Shown in pieces: positions 2,042 to 41,996 of a stretch of 64,000 nt of DNA. Numbering within the stretch: the stretch's first letter is position 1; every line of letters begins with the position of its first letter. The notes under the pieces were generated by a model. The model ran no database searches, was not told the DNA's origin, and saw nothing but the letters and a program-made list of their open reading frames with translations. Position numbers and translations under genes: made by a program. Source of the stretch: a virus; IMG/VR virus record IMGVR_UViG_3300028030_000012, positions 1 through 64,000 of that record. One strand, written 5' to 3'.

Positions 2042-2950
2042 TTATAAATAATAAATTTTTTTTATTTTTTTTATTGTAGGGGTATTTTGATTTGTAAAAT
2101 AAAGGTTATTGCAAAGTATTTTACTCCCTATTAATTTGTTTTTTATTTCTACTAGGAACCCTCTAATAACTAGAGATAGGCTAGATAAAGAATATGTCAA
2201 TTCAGTTTCCCCAAACTTTATTAATAATTCATCTGCCATAGTAAGGGTCTCTCCTGGTAAAAAATTTGTACTACTATTTATTTTTACAATCGTCCCAAAA
2301 ATATCTTCAGATGGGTCAAGAAGCACAGCATTAGTTTTAGTCAAAGCTGATTCTCCTTGTATATAAGACCCTTTTTTATTTAAAAGTAATAGCCCTTCTG
2401 TTTCTGAAGTATTTTGCAAAAGGAATTCTGCCATATCTTTTAATTTTTCTTTAGAATTAACTTCAGAATAGGTAGCGGGTATTATATTAGGCATTATAGG
2501 GTTATTTTCGGTTCCAAAGAATGCTTTAACAAGTAAAACAATATTTTTGAAATTCATTTCTTCAATACTATTTTCATATAAACACATTGTTATATATAAA
2601 TTTGTATTGTTGGGCAAAAGTTTATTAGGGCTTACTAAGGCACTATATAACTGTTCTTCTGATACCCCCTTTGCATACATAGTAGCATGAAGTGTAAAAT
2701 TACGTTTATTAGTTAATTCTAATAAAGTTTTAAACCTTTGTCTGAATTGTGTATTAAGTATGAGATAAGGGTAAGTAATGAGAAATGGATGCCCACCTCG
2801 GATTATTAAATCTACTCCTTTTTTTGCAATTGTTGTATACATTGGGAAAGCTTCGTCCTGTAATCTATCTAATGCAAATCTGCCTTTTACTTTTGGAATT
2901 ATAGTGGGAATAAATGATGTATCAATGTTTGAAATGATTTTGTTTGGCAT
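2042..2950 (-). CDS. Degenerate ATP-dependent DNA ligase-like protein
   Basis: 302 aa. Residues 184-205 (TEGLLLLNKKGSYIQGES, then TK) match motifs IV-V of covalent nucleotidyltransferases (EGLVxK...Y..G.S..W.K). IIRGGHPF at 49-56 resembles the R-x-G motif, and an acidic/aromatic strand follows near 118-125. The expected motif I lysine (KxDG) is not recognisable: the aligned stretch reads FALDRLQDEAF. The family role is sealing nicks through a lysyl-AMP intermediate. Without the lysine this copy may be inactive or structural, or my alignment is off. It follows the primase gene with a 29-nt overlap, which supports a replication role. Confidence 0.45.
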   Translation of the reverse strand: MPNKIISNIDTSFIPTIIPKVKGRFALDRLQDEAFPMYTTIAKKGVDLIIRGGHPFLITYPYLILNTQFRQRFKTLLELTNKRNFTLHATMYAKGVSEEQLYSALVSPNKLLPNNTNLYITMCLYENSIEEMNFKNIVLLVKAFFGTENNPIMPNIIPATYSEVNSKEKLKDMAEFLLQNTSETEGLLLLNKKGSYIQGESALTKTNAVLLDPSEDIFGTIVKINSSTNFLPGETLTMADELLIKFGETELTYSLSSLSLVIRGFLVEIKNKLIGSKILCNNLYFTNQNTPTIKKIKKIYYL

Positions 2951-3896
2951 AGTTTATCTTTTTTGAAATGAGTTTAATAGTTTTTTCTAAGCCATATTTG
3001 AAATGATAATCCGTGATATCTTTTGCTTTTTTTTGACTTGTAAATATAAAGCCAAAAGTAGGATTTTCTTTAAGAAGTCGGCGAGTACCTGTGATACCGG
3101 CTTTGTCCATGTCATAGAATACTATAACGTATTTAAAGTTTTTTTTGAGTATTTTTAATGCTTTTTCAGGTATTTTATGCCCTTCTCCATTAGGTGCTAT
3201 AGCGGTATATCCTAATTGATATAAGTACATAACATCTTTTAGAGATTTTGTTATAATGACAGTATCTTTGGAATAGTCTAGTTGCTCCCATCCTTGAATG
3301 TAATCGGCTGTACAATTAGTATAGAATCTTTTTTCTTTATAAAAAGGCCTATAAATTTTATTTTTATCATATATTTCATAATCAAACATAGGATTTGTAG
3401 TAGACGAGTAACCTTTGACAATGCCATTTACCCAATATTTTTTTATTTGGGTAACTTTGAAATAATTTAATGTTTTTAAAGTAATTCCGAATTTTTGCCA
3501 AAAAGAGATTCCTTCGGCATTCCATGTGATTTTACTTGTGTGTATATTTCTTTCGCCCGACTTAATTTCAGGTATAGAAGTAGTTTTTACTACTTTAATG
3601 TTGGAATATTGTTTGAAAAGGTATTCAATTGTCTCTGATGTGTGCATACCTTCAGTAAGCTTAGCGAATTTAATAGCGTCACCTGACTCCCCTGTACCTA
3701 AATCTTTAAACATTAGGTTATTTTTTCTACCTCGGAATATACCGAAAGAAGGATTAAGGTCCTGTCTAAAAGGTGATTTGTATACTTTACCTACTATCGG
3801 ATTAAAGCCTAAATAGGATTTGTATATATCATACTCAGAAATTAGTTTATAGACGTCTTCTTTAGTATGCTTAAATACGTTAGCTGTATTGTACAT
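2922..3896 (-). CDS. DNA primase, toprim type
   Basis: 324 aa. Residues 40-75 carry SPFRQDLNPSFGIF and FKDLGTGESGDAIKF, the conserved DnaG N-terminal pattern, but no zinc-binding cysteines are present. A toprim domain follows: IITKSLKDV (214-222), then the DxD strand VIVFYDMDKAG (257-267). The usual toprim glutamate is replaced by lysine 217. Role: synthesis of RNA primers at the fork together with the helicase encoded upstream. It is followed by the ligase-like gene, with overlap. The single toprim domain and 324-aa size are typical of short phage primases. Confidence 0.75.
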   Translation of the reverse strand: MYNTANVFKHTKEDVYKLISEYDIYKSYLGFNPIVGKVYKSPFRQDLNPSFGIFRGRKNNLMFKDLGTGESGDAIKFAKLTEGMHTSETIEYLFKQYSNIKVVKTTSIPEIKSGERNIHTSKITWNAEGISFWQKFGITLKTLNYFKVTQIKKYWVNGIVKGYSSTTNPMFDYEIYDKNKIYRPFYKEKRFYTNCTADYIQGWEQLDYSKDTVIITKSLKDVMYLYQLGYTAIAPNGEGHKIPEKALKILKKNFKYVIVFYDMDKAGITGTRRLLKENPTFGFIFTSQKKAKDITDYHFKYGLEKTIKLISKKINYAKQNHFKH

Positions 3897-31845: not shown

Positions 31846-34800
31846 ATGAAAGCTGAGTTAAAAGTAACAAAGAACAGTAATAAATTTAGAAAACCTGCAT
31901 TACACTATCAAAAATATGACCAGTATTTGTTTGCTCCACAAGGCACTTCAGAATATGTAAAATACTGGTCTACAGAATATGATAGGTGTAAATTTGGTTA
32001 TACAGCTGAGGATGGTGATTTCATCCCCGGCTATTTTTATTTCTACTTGAATTACTTTCCTATTAGTCTGATTAAAGAGGTTGAGGTAGAAATAGGGGTA
32101 GGTAAAACAAGTAGGAGGGCTTCGGCTATACGGGACTTTCCTAGTTTTTATGATTATGACAGGTTTTTCTTTGAGTCTATAGAGAATTGTGAAGAGGAGG
32201 GCAAACACCTTATAGTTCTAAAAGCTCGTCGTAAAGGGTATAGTTACAAAATAGCTTCAATGTTATTACGCAACTATTATTTTTTTAGAGGTTCTAAAGG
32301 ATTTGCCCTAGCTGCAGAGGCAGAGTTTTTAGTAAAGGACGGTATTCTAACTAAGACTTGGGATGGCATGGACTTTTTAGATCAGCATACCGCTTGGTTT
32401 AAAAAAAGGCAAGTTAAGAATACTATGATGTGGCGTAGAGCCTCTTTCTTACAAAAAGATGACACTGGTGTAGATATTGAAATAGGCTACAAGTCTGAGA
32501 TAATGGGGGTTACTTTAAAGAATGATCCTCAGAAAGCTAGGGGTAAAGGCGGCCGGCTTATTATATTTGAAGAGGCTGGTAAGTTTAGAAACCTATTACA
32601 AGTATGGCAAATTGCGAGACCCTCTGTAGAACAAGGCTCTTTTGTACAAGGGACAATGATTGGTTTTGGATGTACGTTAGCGGGTACAAAGCTTTATACC
32701 AAAGAGGGTAGGTTAGTTAATGTAGAAGATTTAAAAATAGAGAGTGGGACTATAGGTTATAATGGATATTCTCATGAGAAGGAAGATATTGTAGGTACCC
32801 TTTTTAGTTTTAAAAAACAGAGTTATAAAATTACATTGAATTCTGGTAGGTTTATAGAATGTAGTTATGACCATCCTATGCTATTCAGTAAAAGGGATTT
32901 ACAAGAGAGAGTGCCTGGGTTTAGAGGAGAAGGGCTGAGGCGTAAAAAAGTAAAATGGGCAAAAACTGAAGATTTAAAAATAGGGGATCAATTAGCTGTT
33001 TTAGAAGAATTTCCTTTTGAATCAAATAAAGAAATGTGGGAACCTCGTTTTATAGGGTTACTTATTGGAGATGGTTCTTATGGTTATAATAAAACACCAG
33101 TACTATCTAATGCTGATGAAGAAGTTAATTCTTTTATAGATGATAGATTTAACACAGTAATAGAAAAATCTTATATTACAAAAGATGGTAGACTATATAG
33201 AGAAACTAGAATAAAAGGAATTACTAAAAAATTACGGGGACTAGGGATCTATGGGCAAACTAAAAATAGAAAAGCTTTTCCCATTGATATACATTCTTAT
33301 TCTGAAAATACTGTTACAGAAATATTAAGTGGGTTTTTTGATGCTGATGGGTATATTTATCAAACAAAAACAGGGCGTATTAGAATTAATTTTTCTTCTT
33401 CTTTTGATTTACTATTAGAAGTGCTTTATTTATTACAAAGATTGGGTATACATGGTAAAATACATTTTATAAAAGATGAAAGAAAAAATAGAAAAATAAA
33501 AAGTAATGGGGGGTACTATAGACTTTCTATAGAAGATCTTAAGAGTTTACTTGTATTTTCTACTAAAATAATTTCACTTATTAATAGGAAACAAACCCTT
33601 TTAAATAAAATAGTTGGGTATGCATCTGTACATGAAAGTTCCTTAAGTAAATATATTTCTGGTATAAGATTCGAAAGGATTGTAAAAATAGAAGATTTAG
33701 GGGAACAGCCTGTTTATAATTTGCAAACTTCGAACACTCATACCTATATCGCTAATGGTATTGTAACTAAAAACACAGGGGGTGAGGAAGGCGAAGATTT
33801 TGATGGTCTTAAAGAATTGTTTGAGAGGCCTAAAGCATACAATTGTTTAGAGTTAGATAATATATGGGATGAGGAAAATATTGGTCAAAAGGTAGGATTC
33901 TTTGTACCACAGTATGCTAACTTAGAAGGGGAATATTATAATGAGGATGATAAGGATGACCCTTTAAATGGAGAGCCCTTTATGGATGATCAAGGTAATA
34001 CTAGAACTTTAGTAGCTAAGAAGTATGTGCTATTACAAAGGTCAAAAGTAATAAAGAATGCTTCAGATAGACGTGCTATAGATAGGCATATTGCTGAGCA
34101 GCCTATAATACCTGCAGAAGCCCTACTTGATTTAAGTTCTAATATATTCCCTAAAGCTGATTTGCAAAGGCATTTAGCTCATATAAGGAATGACGAAAAG
34201 TTACGTCAGTTTAAACAAGTGGGAGATTTATATTTTGATAATGAAGGTATTATAAAGTGGATGCCTGTAGAAGCTGATAAAGCTAAAGATATTATAAGGT
34301 ATCGTTTAGATCCGCAAGACGACCCTAAGGGTCAAATAGTAATATGGGAACACCCTATGAAAGCCCCTCCTTGGGGCTTATATATAGCAGGCTGTCTTAC
34401 TCCAGGTGAGAAAGTAAATACTTCAGAAGGATTAAAGAATGTGGAGGATGTAACACTAGAAGATAAACTCATAAATAAAGAAGGGGAAGAAGTCGAAATA
34501 AATACTTTATTAAGATATGAAAAAGTAAACGAACCTACTTATAAAGTGCATATGTATAATGTGGATAGGCCTACTAATTATACACAAGAACATCCTTTAT
34601 ATGTAGCAGATATTCCTGAAGGTAAGTTCGATTTTATAAGGGCAGAAGAAGTTGAAAAAGGCATGTGGACTAAAGCTCCTAATTATTATAAAATAAATTC
34701 TAAAGAGATTGATACTACTATTTGGGATAATTATAAAACTAGAAATACAAAAGATACTAATCCTTTGTTAGATGAAGATTTTTGGTGGTTTGTAGGACAT

Positions 34801-36180
34801 TGGTTAGGAGACGGGTTCAATCATAAACAAGGGAGAAATTATACTATTTACAATTCTTTCGGTAAAAAAGAAACTGATTATATAGACAAGTATAAAAGAA
34901 TTGTTAAAGAACTTTTTAATAGAAATCCTAATCCCAAAGTTCAAAATGGATCTGGTACGCATAAGTTTGAATTTAAACAATTATTCTTATTCTTAGAAGA
35001 TAATTTTGGTAAATATGCCGATGGTAAGTATATTTCTGAATGGGTTAAGTATATACCTGAAGAATATAAACTTCAATTAGTTTTAGGATATTTAGATTCT
35101 GACGGATCTGTTTATTTAGATAACAATAGAATAGTTAGTAGTTTTAAAAGTATTAATAGAAAATTACTTTATGATATACAAGACATTTTATTTTCGGTAG
35201 GAATTGTATCTAGTTTTCATTTGTCTGAAAAGAAAGGGAAATACAATATTAAGGGGAAAATTGGAAATAGAAAAGAAAGTTATCGTTTAAGAGTGAATCA
35301 GACAAATACTGTAAAATTATATAATTTATACAATTCTTTATACAATAGTAGAAAATTAAAGTTGATAGGAGTTAATAAAAACGGAATAAATTTTGTTAAA
35401 AGCAGAGGTTGTCAAATGTCTGAGGATTTAACTTATATTTACATTAAAATAAAAAATATAGAAGTGTCTACATATTCGGGTACCGTTTATAATTTTGATT
35501 GTAAAACACACAGTTTTATATGTCAGTACTTCTCGGGACATAACTGTGACCCCTATGATCACGATAAATCAGGGACTAATTCTTTAGGTTCTACTTTTAT
35601 ATTTAAACGAATACAGAGTTTTGAAGAATATTATGATATGCCTGTAGCAGAGTATACTGGTAGGCCGGATACTGCAGCAGAATATTATGAGAATGTTCGT
35701 AAATTACTTATGTATTATAATGCTACTTTATTATATGAAAATGAGAAGAAAGGTTTATTCTTTTATTTTGAAAAAGTAAACGCCACTTATTTATTAGCAG
35801 ACCAGCCTAATGATTTAATAGGAGATATTGTAAAAGATAGTAAAGTAGACAGGAAAAAAGGAATCCATATGTCTCAGTTTATTAAGGACTGGGGAGAGGG
35901 TGCAATAAGGGACTGGTTAGTCGAAGAGTTTGCCCCAGGTAAAAAGAATCTTACCAAAATAATGTCGGAACCTTTATTAGAGGAACTCATAGCCTACAAT
36001 GATAAAGGTAATTTCGATAGGGTAATGGCATTCATGTTGGTCATGATGTACCGACAACAACTGCATAAGTTGCATGTTAAGAAAAATCGTTTGGAAAATA
36101 AAAAGCGCTTGTTATTTCCTGATGGTTTATTTACAGGCTATGATGATGAGGAAAATTATACGTATAACATTTCAATTTAA
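31846..36180 (+). CDS. Terminase large subunit with two inteins
   Basis: 1444-aa precursor. Removing inteins 276-643 and 850-1233 leaves a 692-aa terminase. The ATPase has Walker A-like ARRKGYSYK (127-135) and Walker B LIIFEEAG (238-245). The coupling motif reads GFG|TGG and is split by intein 1. The RNase H-like nuclease begins YIAG|CDPYDHD, split by intein 2 directly before its first aspartate block, and continues with a YENEKKG segment carrying the second acidic site. Role: ATP-driven DNA packaging and genome cutting. Both inserts are in frame, so activity depends on protein splicing. Confidence 0.92.
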   Translation: MKAELKVTKNSNKFRKPALHYQKYDQYLFAPQGTSEYVKYWSTEYDRCKFGYTAEDGDFIPGYFYFYLNYFPISLIKEVEVEIGVGKTSRRASAIRDFPSFYDYDRFFFESIENCEEEGKHLIVLKARRKGYSYKIASMLLRNYYFFRGSKGFALAAEAEFLVKDGILTKTWDGMDFLDQHTAWFKKRQVKNTMMWRRASFLQKDDTGVDIEIGYKSEIMGVTLKNDPQKARGKGGRLIIFEEAGKFRNLLQVWQIARPSVEQGSFVQGTMIGFGCTLAGTKLYTKEGRLVNVEDLKIESGTIGYNGYSHEKEDIVGTLFSFKKQSYKITLNSGRFIECSYDHPMLFSKRDLQERVPGFRGEGLRRKKVKWAKTEDLKIGDQLAVLEEFPFESNKEMWEPRFIGLLIGDGSYGYNKTPVLSNADEEVNSFIDDRFNTVIEKSYITKDGRLYRETRIKGITKKLRGLGIYGQTKNRKAFPIDIHSYSENTVTEILSGFFDADGYIYQTKTGRIRINFSSSFDLLLEVLYLLQRLGIHGKIHFIKDERKNRKIKSNGGYYRLSIEDLKSLLVFSTKIISLINRKQTLLNKIVGYASVHESSLSKYISGIRFERIVKIEDLGEQPVYNLQTSNTHTYIANGIVTKNTGGEEGEDFDGLKELFERPKAYNCLELDNIWDEENIGQKVGFFVPQYANLEGEYYNEDDKDDPLNGEPFMDDQGNTRTLVAKKYVLLQRSKVIKNASDRRAIDRHIAEQPIIPAEALLDLSSNIFPKADLQRHLAHIRNDEKLRQFKQVGDLYFDNEGIIKWMPVEADKAKDIIRYRLDPQDDPKGQIVIWEHPMKAPPWGLYIAGCLTPGEKVNTSEGLKNVEDVTLEDKLINKEGEEVEINTLLRYEKVNEPTYKVHMYNVDRPTNYTQEHPLYVADIPEGKFDFIRAEEVEKGMWTKAPNYYKINSKEIDTTIWDNYKTRNTKDTNPLLDEDFWWFVGHWLGDGFNHKQGRNYTIYNSFGKKETDYIDKYKRIVKELFNRNPNPKVQNGSGTHKFEFKQLFLFLEDNFGKYADGKYISEWVKYIPEEYKLQLVLGYLDSDGSVYLDNNRIVSSFKSINRKLLYDIQDILFSVGIVSSFHLSEKKGKYNIKGKIGNRKESYRLRVNQTNTVKLYNLYNSLYNSRKLKLIGVNKNGINFVKSRGCQMSEDLTYIYIKIKNIEVSTYSGTVYNFDCKTHSFICQYFSGHNCDPYDHDKSGTNSLGSTFIFKRIQSFEEYYDMPVAEYTGRPDTAAEYYENVRKLLMYYNATLLYENEKKGLFFYFEKVNATYLLADQPNDLIGDIVKDSKVDRKKGIHMSQFIKDWGEGAIRDWLVEEFAPGKKNLTKIMSEPLLEELIAYNDKGNFDRVMAFMLVMMYRQQLHKLHVKKNRLENKKRLLFPDGLFTGYDDEENYTYNISI
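32671..33774 (+). other. Intein 1 (LAGLIDADG) in TerL
   Basis: 368 aa. Starts with Cys276 (CTLAGTKLYTKEGRLVNVED, block A). Block B is CSYDHPML. Endonuclease blocks LLIGDGSYG and GFFDADGYIY follow, and the C-terminal HTYIANGIVTKN precedes Thr as the +1 residue. The penultimate residue is Lys rather than His, a non-canonical but tolerated variant. The insertion point is inside the terminase coupling motif (GFG|TGG). Confidence 0.9.
34393..35544 (+). other. Intein 2 (LAGLIDADG) in TerL
   Basis: 384 aa. Starts with Cys850 (CLTPGEKVNTSEGLKNVED). Block B is TQEHPLYV, the endonuclease blocks are VGHWLGDGF and LGYLDSDGSVY, and the canonical C-terminus is SGHN followed by Cys as +1. It is inserted immediately before the DPYDHD nuclease active-site motif. 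All splice-junction residues are canonical, and both acidic DOD residues appear intact. Confidence 0.93.
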
Positions 36181-39703: not shown

Positions 39704-41996
39704 ATGACTAATACAGTTCTTAACGGATTACAGCTGTACCGTGCCAAATGGTTTTCAGATTTAGTAGATGAGAATATGTTATCAAATGCTTTGATGACAA
39801 AACCTCACGAAGTTTCTACTATACTGTCTTATGTATTTGGTACTTATGAAAGTAGTGTAATCGACTTCCTGACCTCAGGATTAGGAAAAACAGTTACTGT
39901 TGAAAACAGACAGTACGAATGGCCAGTTATGATACAACATGACAAAGCCATTGAAATATTTGATGCTAAGTGGCAAGGTGCGGCTATTACCGATAATCTT
40001 ACACCAGGCATAAACCAAACTCCTATACTTTTGTATTTGAAAGAAAAGTGGTTAACCAATGGGCTGAGCCACGCTGCATAGTAATATGTAGAAAAATAAA
40101 TTTCGTGAATTGCTGGAAACTCTTAAAGATATTTAGACCGTAGAGTAATACTTAAATATATAGAGATGAAAATTAAAAATAGACAATCAGCAGCCGAGCT
40201 AGTAGAAATGAAACCAATTCCTGGATGGGAAGATTCCTATTCTATAACTGAAGATGGAAAAGTTTTTTCAAATAGAAGTAACAAATTTTTATCCCCTAGA
40301 GAATCAATGGATGGGTATAATAGAGTTGCTTTACAAAAAGAAGGTTATAGGAGAGAATATAGAATAGCAAGATTAGTAGCTATTACATATATTCCAAATC
40401 CAGAAAATAAAGAACAAGTAAACCATAAAGATTATAATAGAAAAAACGATTTTATAAATAATCTAAAATGGGTTACCCCAAAAGAAAATACAGACTATTC
40501 CTTTAAAAAAGAAAGTAGGTTTAAAATACCTGAAACTTATAAAGTCTATACTTTTACAAATGTATTTAACAATAATTCATTTACAATAATAGGAATTAAA
40601 AATGTAGCTAAACAATTTGGATGTTCTGCTAAAAACTTTAAAGCACTAATTACAAAATATGCCAATACTGGTATGTACGTAAAACAAGGTTACTTTAAAG
40701 GACTTAGAATTGATTCAGACTACTTGAAGGTTCAGAGACTATCCGAAAGGAGTACACTCTAGTGAGTGGAAGTGCGAAACATCCCTAGTGGATGAAGATA
40801 TAGTCCGATCTCATGTGAGAGCATGAGCAGCTTAAAAAGCGGGTAGGGAATAACGCCCCCTACTGAACATCAACAGAAATGTTGGCCCAGGCGCAATCTT
40901 GGCTTTTGATGAACGTGAGTTTCAGGTAAGAGTTTCAGGCGCCCCTTATCAAGATGGTGATTATTTTGTATACACTGTTTTTGTAGCCGATGGTAGATCG
41001 GAATCTTATATTCCGCCTGAGCTATTGGAAAAAAGTAAAAGGGTAAGCCGTGAAGGCTCTGCTTACGAAGAGTACAGTGATGAGTCAGATATCGTGAATT
41101 ATAATACTCCATTGAAGTTAAGGAATCACCTTACTACAATGAGATTATCTTATGATATTACAGGTTCTGCTTATTCGTCTAAGATGGTAATCGAGATGAA
41201 AGATCCTAAAACAGGAAAATCATCTTATCTATGGTCTGATTATCAGGAGTGGGTGGCCCTACGTCAATGGTATCAAACAATGGATCGTTTCTTAGTTTAT
41301 TCTAAGTATAACGCTAATCCAGACGGTACTACTGATTTAAAAGGTACTAATGGACGTCCTGTATATATTGGCGCTGGTTTGTTACAGCAGATTGCTGCTT
41401 CTAACCGTCAATCCTATACAAAACTGACAGCGGATCTACTTGAGGATTATCTCTTCAATTTGTCTTATAACATCATGGCCAAAGGGGAGCGTAAGTTTGT
41501 AGCTCTTACAGGTGAGATGGGAATGAAAGAATTTGACCGTATACTTAAAGAAAAAGCTTCAGGTTACCAATTAGTTGATACTAAATTTGTATCAGGTTCT
41601 GGGCAAGAGCTTACTTTAGGCGGGCAGTTCACTACTTATAAAATGCTCAATGGCATAGAACTTACATTGAAGCACTTCCCATTGTATGATGATATTGTAT
41701 ATAATCGTAGTTTACACCCAGTTAGTGGCAAGCCTTTAGAATCTTATAGGATGACCTTTGTTGACTTTGGAATGCGTGATGGCGAATCCAATGTGCAGAA
41801 AGTTGTTCGTAAAGATCGTGAGATGGCTATGTGGCATATTGCTGGTTCTGTAGCTCCAGGTACTGGACATGCAAAATCTAAATCAACTCTTCGTGCTAAT
41901 GCTAAAGATGGTTATTCAGTTAACTTCTTAACAGAGCAGGGAATCATGATGAAAGATCCTACAACGAGTGGGGAATTAATCATGGATATTGCCTAG
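39704..41996 (+). CDS. Major capsid protein, interrupted by a group I intron
   Basis: Exons 39704-40052 and 40882-41996 join to 487 codons. Joining reads LKEKW|FGPGAILAFDEREF in frame, so the intron splits the Phe codon. Exon 2 holds VRVSGAPYQDGDYFVY and a long conserved capsid region. The size and these segments match crAss-like HK97-fold capsid proteins. Without splicing, exon 1 would stop after 125 aa. A start at TTG 40899 would make a truncated protein and is not supported. A strong terminator follows. Role: icosahedral shell. Confidence 0.88.
40053..40881 (+). ncRNA. Group I intron in the capsid gene
   Basis: 829 nt. Core elements in order: AATTGCTGGAAACTC (about 40107-40121), AATCAGCAGCC (40185-40195), GGTTCAGAGACTA (40729-40741, P7 5') and GAAGATATAGTCC (40793-40805, P7 3'). 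P1 can be drawn as exon GTGGT paired with intron GCCAC (40067-40071) with a U-G pair at the 5' splice site. The intron ends in G40881. The joined codons restore the capsid frame, which independently supports both sites. Confidence 0.9.
40166..40762 (+). CDS. HNH homing endonuclease in the capsid intron
   Basis: 198 aa (or 184 aa from ATG 40208, which gives a more typical NUMOD4 start, MKPIPGWEDSY). A NUMOD4 domain (IPGWEDSYSITEDGKVFSN) is followed by HNH motif VNHKDYNRKNDFINNLKWVT and a C-terminal modular DNA-binding helix (IKNVAKQFGCSAKNFKALI). It overlaps the intron core at both ends: the P4-P6 strand lies at its start, and the P7 5' strand is read as VQRLSER. Role: mobility of the intron into intronless capsid genes. 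Confidence 0.85.
   Translation: MKIKNRQSAAELVEMKPIPGWEDSYSITEDGKVFSNRSNKFLSPRESMDGYNRVALQKEGYRREYRIARLVAITYIPNPENKEQVNHKDYNRKNDFINNLKWVTPKENTDYSFKKESRFKIPETYKVYTFTNVFNNNSFTIIGIKNVAKQFGCSAKNFKALITKYANTGMYVKQGYFKGLRIDSDYLKVQRLSERSTL

Follow-up and report, generated by a model that had tools for sequence, protein, structure and literature searches.

Two predicted class 1 homing inteins at the ATPase and nuclease centers of the large terminase subunit of a crAss-like phage

The terL gene, which encodes the large terminase subunit (TerL), is one that a phage cannot do without. In mycobacteriophages, TerL inteins have been described at seven sites, none of them outside the ATPase domain; Walker A and the coupling motif are among them, TerL6-f being the intein in the C-motif. 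These inteins splice efficiently in E. coli, and intein-minus phage DNA has served as a test substrate for their LAGLIDADG endonuclease (Kelley et al. 2016, PMC5050341). According to Yutin et al. 2021 (PMC7886860), the TerL of the ‘Delta’ crAss-like phages is typically intein-bearing, and that of the cMAG OBYQ01000140 comprises three in-frame pieces and two inteins. Here we analyzed the first 64,000 nucleotides (the window) of IMG/VR virus record IMGVR_UViG_3300028030_000012, which is 68,097 bases long, and in which terL contains two intervening segments, intein A at the ATPase coupling motif and intein B at the nuclease site. We conclude, with a probability of roughly 90%, that the two segments are class 1 homing inteins, that is, mobile selfish elements predicted from sequence and models to leave behind a motor of 692 amino acids (aa).

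The intein-free TerL proteins of three relatives (L002, L004 and L005; relatives are given L numbers throughout) are 81–83% identical to that of the window and align to it without gaps at both junctions. Their empty sites read MIAFG/TGGEEGED and LYIAG/TDPYDHDK at the protein level (slashes mark junctions), and both empty sites are continuous at the DNA level in intein-free relatives. In silico removal of both segments from the window precursor gives a protein of 692 aa. An initial annotation of this DNA had placed one intein in the coupling motif and another directly ahead of the first acidic nuclease site and had noted that homologous terminases lacking the segments but showing no clean join would count against the proposal. 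The joins in L002, L004 and L005 are clean, and the profiles, residues and folds described below agree with the proposal as well. The coordinates of the initial annotation were also correct, its end at 35547 taking in the +1 Cys codon, which is part of TerL. All relatives were gathered by peptide-pattern scans, two of which selected for inteins, and not randomly, so the frequencies given here are not population estimates; counts of relatives take related rows as separate.

Intein A splits the coupling motif at GFG/TGG. Its splicing residues are Cys1, Ser65-x-x-His68, Lys367-Asn368 and a +1 Thr, and its endonuclease motifs are LLIGDGS and GFFDADG, with Asp134 and Asp224/Asp226 intact; the reading frame is open across 1104 bases. 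The segment matches Pfam LAGLIDADG_3 (E 1.1e-11) and, above the cut-off, Intein_splicing (E 1.8e-10), as well as both NCBIfam intein_Nterm and intein_Cterm, and a PDB profile search led to PI-PfuI. The best structural matches of its AlphaFold model are PI-SceI/VMA-type homing-endonuclease inteins. Intein B is inserted one residue ahead of the first nuclease Asp, at YIAG/C-DPYDHD, and has the splicing residues Cys1, Thr64-x-x-His67, His373, His383-Asn384 and a +1 Cys. Its endonuclease motifs are HWLGDGF and GYLDSDG, with Asp140 and Asp235/Asp237 intact. Pfam LAGLIDADG_3 is matched here too (E 1e-9), Intein_splicing exceeding its cut-off in intein A only. A PDB profile search with intein B recovered PI-PkoII (1e-11) and PI-SceI (1e-5), and its AlphaFold model (predicted local distance difference test (pLDDT) 83) is structurally closest to PI-SceI and TliVMA.

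Both segments therefore carry what defines the N-terminal part of a class 1 intein, a Cys or Ser at position 1 and a block B Thr/Ser-x-x-His, along with a clean empty site. At the C-terminus, intein B has the full HN/C ending, and intein A, ending KN/T, has the Asn and the Thr without the penultimate His. Each also contains a pair of LAGLIDADG motifs that keep their catalytic acidic residues, and the horizontal spread into a fixed site expected of LAGLIDADG endonucleases is seen as one clade per site together with discordance with TerL. Cys1, the block B His and intact endonuclease blocks in both segments had been read correctly in the initial annotation, as had the KN/T ending. In homologous inteins, Cys1 is found in 52/52 distinct inteins at the coupling-motif site (site A) and 44/44 at the first nuclease site (site B), the terminal Asn in 47/52 and 44/44, and the +1 residue is Thr or Ser in all 52 of the former and Cys in all 44 of the latter. 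Judged by these residues and by the predicted folds, both window segments are class 1 inteins. Class 3 (WCT) inteins lack a position-1 nucleophile and have a Trp in block B and a Cys at F:4; such a mechanism was rejected for the window inteins, in both of which position 1 is Cys and F:4 is Asn.

The two inteins belong to families that have moved independently of their host gene. In a maximum-likelihood tree of 26 class 1 inteins there is one clade per site, with support of 96/95 for site A, 98/99 for site B and 100/99 for a site at the third nuclease Asp (site F). In a TerL tree built from 95 exteins, the number of occupancy changes is close to the number of carriers (8 carriers and 8 changes at site A, 11 and 10 at site B, 5 and 5 at site F), and for occupancy by any insert there are 20 changes compared to 22.3 with shuffled labels, carriers overall being hardly more clustered than in the shuffled case. 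The placement of some long branches (L018, L014 and L116) in this tree is insecure; the pattern between close rows does not depend on them. Within a group of 81–84% identical TerL proteins, inteins A and B are both present in the window, A is present in L001 and F in L003, and the genes of L002, L004 and L005 are intein-free. The similarity between inteins is unrelated to that between their TerL proteins at site A (Mantel rho −0.05, p 0.53) and site B (0.13, p 0.17), but tracks it at site F (0.76, p 0.04, five rows). For example, the TerL proteins of the window and L001 are 82% identical and their A inteins 41%, the corresponding values for L018 are 38% and 49%, and for L021 the TerL proteins are 58% and the B inteins 68% identical. 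The dN/dS of intein B is about 0.12–0.24, and 0.12 for its endonuclease part, values that are rough because dS is near saturation. The GC content is 27–30% in the inteins and 36% in the extein. Purifying selection and lower GC are also in line with mobile, active elements, and the per-site clades, the scattered occupancy and the lack of tracking of TerL divergence indicate, at the level of sequence comparison, the behavior expected of homing elements.

From this we infer a route in which both inteins would excise from the TerL precursor and ligate the three TerL pieces into the 692-aa motor. On co-infection by an intein-free relative, the LAGLIDADG endonuclease would cut the empty terL site, and repair of the cut would copy the intein in, at times with flanking codons such as that of the site B +1 Cys. 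On this view the inteins persist because they occupy some of the most strongly conserved codons that an essential gene has, where targets remain recognizable and where imprecise loss would destroy packaging.

The +1 codons bear on this route. At site F (TerL residue 641), the +1 residue is Cys in 5/5 filled alleles (L003, L006, L020, L060 and L110), and among empty alleles it is Val in 94/107 and Cys in 1/107. The site B +1 residue is Cys in all filled alleles, with Cys, Ile, Thr or Val in empty ones and His in a distant intein-free clade. The site A +1 Thr is the invariant TerL residue itself across 105 empty alleles. At sites B and F, these allele sequences agree with the +1 codon being co-converted together with the intein, and at site F the intein seems to bring its nucleophile along.

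Several observations weigh against the homing-intein interpretation. The Intein_splicing match in intein B is under the Pfam cut-off (E 4.7e-4, 20.4 vs 35.8 bits), so its identity follows from family, fold and residues; the model of intein A is moderate (pLDDT 70, predicted template modeling score 0.55), and this intein is the sole one with a KN ending among 52 at site A. The roughness of the dN/dS estimates and the use of pattern scans rather than random sampling belong here as well. That the segments are instead structural insertions retained in the protein, or an assembly chimaera, has a negligible probability in our judgment, given that intein residues, folds and site-specific families occur in dozens of independent contigs and that the joins fall within GFG/TGG and ahead of DPYDHD, both of which are continuous in relatives. 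A chimaera or frame error was likewise rejected on the basis of 1444 open codons and the recurrence of the intein families in independent contigs.

A different question is whether the inteins are put to use. Conditional splicing, slowed by the KN/T ending or redox-sensitive through extra Cys residues, could delay a working motor until late infection, and the initial annotation had viewed splicing as a timing switch for late packaging. Both inteins lie at catalytic centers, so that an unspliced motor should be inactive; regulatory roles of TerL inteins are discussed by Kelley et al. (PMC5050341); and extra Cys residues are conserved, with block F Cys370 in 40/45 and Cys377 in 32/45 of the intein B family and Cys64 invariant (53/53) in site-A inteins. 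However, the closest relatives package without either intein, the interrupted site varies between phages, and homing alone accounts for insertion at conserved sites. The near equality of occupancy changes and carriers speaks against a conserved role of splicing in timing, and the relatives, which lack either insert and differ in the site interrupted, give no sign of a shared regulatory use. A TerL that fails to splice should be non-functional, which makes splicing necessary but does not make it regulatory. We therefore find the timing switch unsupported and consider regulatory splicing improbable; a role private to this phage is possible and has no positive support. Slightly less probable still is a two-lock system in which the stacked inteins would hold the ATPase and nuclease centers inactive until both leave, delaying packaging post-translationally and possibly sensing conditions via the extra conserved Cys.

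The KN/T ending could alternatively signal decay, with intein A, lacking the penultimate His, becoming a poorly splicing relic whose endonuclease is out of selection. Its uniqueness at site A and the KQ or RQ ends of sister alleles are in keeping with such decay, whereas all endonuclease Asp residues are intact, the long frame is open, and at least five distinct inteins share a KQ or RQ ending. Indeed, the 52 distinct site-A inteins end in HN (45), KQ or RQ (5), AN (1) and KN (1), their frames are free of stops in all but one, and QKN ends three site-B inteins, so that a penultimate Lys recurs in several inteins with the frame kept, which also speaks against a regulatory reading. DnaE inteins with Ser or Ala ahead of the terminal Asn are known in nature (PMC5874633). 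Slower splicing by KN, as suggested in the initial annotation, is possible and is not indicated by these recurring variants. By comparison of the endings, KN/T is a tolerated variant, the penultimate His being common and not obligatory, and we judge decay to be as improbable as regulation. The two segments are thus best read as homing inteins.

Among the relatives, inteins are seen at no fewer than six conserved positions of TerL, and a single gene has up to three. In addition to sites A and B, these are Walker A (L059 and L060), residue 230 directly ahead of a conserved RG (L064), residues 387–388 (L013, L061 and L115) and site F, at NFDR/CMA (L003, L006, L020, L060 and L110). Site A lies at the 96th and site B at the 87th conservation percentile of TerL positions, and the six sites are jointly more conserved than random TerL positions (p = 3e-4). 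The TerL of L020 (1362–6866) is encoded by a single open reading frame (ORF) of 1834 aa, in which all three of sites A (coupling motif), B (first nuclease Asp) and F (third nuclease Asp) hold an intein. Sites A and B are filled together in L216/L218/L219, L201, L224 and L145, and therefore the window combination recurs in other viral contigs. Further pairs are W and A in L146, L160 and L161, and probably also in L136–L138, D and B in L186, and W and F in L060. The inteins at Walker A and residue 230 (L059 4370–5419, L060 780–1829 and L064 4643–5686) are without a position-1 nucleophile and are the only ones to show the Trp/Cys/Thr pattern of class 3; therefore two mechanistic classes of intein have invaded TerL.

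The virus itself is, by its gene content, a crAss-like, gut-type phage. The window matches the Crassvirus capsid profile Crass_capsid PF23898 (E 6.8e-149), P22_portal, and CrAss_Ring_1 and CrAss_Ring_3_4, and encodes a family A DNA polymerase. TerL was assigned by its match to PHROG 6681, terminase large subunit (E 1.7e-132), and its homology to crAss-like TerL, the adjoining portal gene and the crAss capsid and ring proteins are those of a Crassvirales TerL. The gene is readable in the standard code. A megablast of it against phage records gave no match, nor did a PDB profile search with the TerL extein. The parts of the gene are listed in Table 1, where the Walker A-like, Walker B-like and coupling-motif names follow established TerL usage, and the nuclease residues are assigned by the established TerL/RNase H-like fold.

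Table 1 Parts of the window terL gene, with window coordinates.
Feature	Description	Coordinates	Strand	Basis
TerL ORF	Uninterrupted; precursor 1444 aa	31846..36180	+	ORF and PHROG 6681
N-extein	TerL residues 1–275; Walker A-like RRKGYS (128–133), Walker B-like LIIFEE, start of coupling motif GFG	31846..32670	+	Alignment with intein-free relatives
Intein A	368 aa, precursor residues 276–643; predicted class 1, LAGLIDADG endonuclease	32671..33774	+	Profiles, residues, predicted fold
Middle extein	TerL residues 276–481; TGG of coupling motif through YIAG ahead of first nuclease Asp	33775..34392	+	Alignment with intein-free relatives
Intein B	384 aa, precursor residues 850–1233; predicted class 1, LAGLIDADG endonuclease	34393..35544	+	Family, predicted fold, residues
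C-extein	TerL residues 482–692; C-DPYDHD with first nuclease Asp D483, E546, third Asp D639 (NFDRVMA)	35545..36180	+	Alignment with intein-free relatives

Other intervening sequences were observed in these genomes. The window major capsid gene (39704–41996, + strand) is split by an approximately 0.8-kb group I intron, at roughly 40060–40885, which holds a NUMOD4/HNH endonuclease ORF (40166–40762); capsid profile positions 2–122 lie upstream and 128–495 downstream of it, and the gene is uninterrupted in L001–L003. A local Rfam search with E-values gave a group I match in this intron (E 1.1e-6), and Rfam at gathering thresholds over the window gave nothing. Near the left end of the window and a Toprim/primase-like gene (2922–3896), an ORF with a GIY-YIG domain (935–1648, − strand) is possibly a free-standing homing endonuclease or an intron ORF. 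In terL itself, three relatives have an intervening sequence of 223–242 nt, three codons past intein B, that splits CDPY/DHD (L009 3471–3694, L011 3453–3675 and L068 6513–6754). Its excision restores CDPYDHD exactly; as with group I introns, the last base of the 5′ exon is U and that of the insert is G. Rfam found no group I match in the three sequences, and it is from the exact join and the U/G ends that a group I nature is suggested. As read from their sequences, making these TerL proteins would call for splicing of both RNA and protein at almost one and the same spot. The annotated crAss-like TerL records L009, L011 and L012 break off or are wrongly annotated where inteins, introns or TAG recoding occur, and the ‘terminase’ coding sequences of cr7_1 and cr131_1 stop shortly past the intein.

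The TerL of crAss-like phages thus looks to be among the most heavily targeted intein genes, with at least six sites and up to three filled at once. The well-sampled sites each have their own intein clade and many close pairs differ solely in occupancy, which makes this gene a natural laboratory for intein gain, loss and +1 co-conversion, and for why homing elements choose catalytic codons. There is also a warning for annotation, as TerL is the usual marker gene of crAss-like phages and is often mis-split or mis-sized.

A doubly interrupted TerL is already known in crAss-like phages, and a coupling-motif TerL intein is known in mycobacteriophages. The window shares virus group and gene with the ‘Delta’ (Suoliviridae-type) phages of PMC7886860, and the comparison with OBYQ01000140 is one of gene and intein number, not of insertion residue; the inteins of the latter are described there as Hint-Hop type with TAG recoding, whereas the window uses the standard code. 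The public crAss-like phages cr118_1, cr7_1 and cr131_1 (site B) and Dulem virus 42 and Dulem virus 41 (site A) have the insertion point and intein clade of the window, each with one of the two inteins. PI-SceI- and TliVMA-type inteins (PDB 1vde and 7qsu) combine a Hint domain with a two-motif LAGLIDADG endonuclease, as do both window models, with 12–18% sequence identity and with yeast or archaeal V-type ATPase genes as hosts. A literature search found no description of the nuclease-center sites, the three-intein gene or the per-site clades, although this does not prove them to be undescribed. Unlike the mycobacteriophage sites (PMC5050341), with which the comparison is by site and not by extein sequence, intein B and site F of the relatives lie in the nuclease active center. 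What the present analysis adds to the described systems is therefore these nuclease-center sites, a TerL with three inteins, a +1 Cys that appears to travel with its intein, and the close proximity of an intein and a group-I-like intron.

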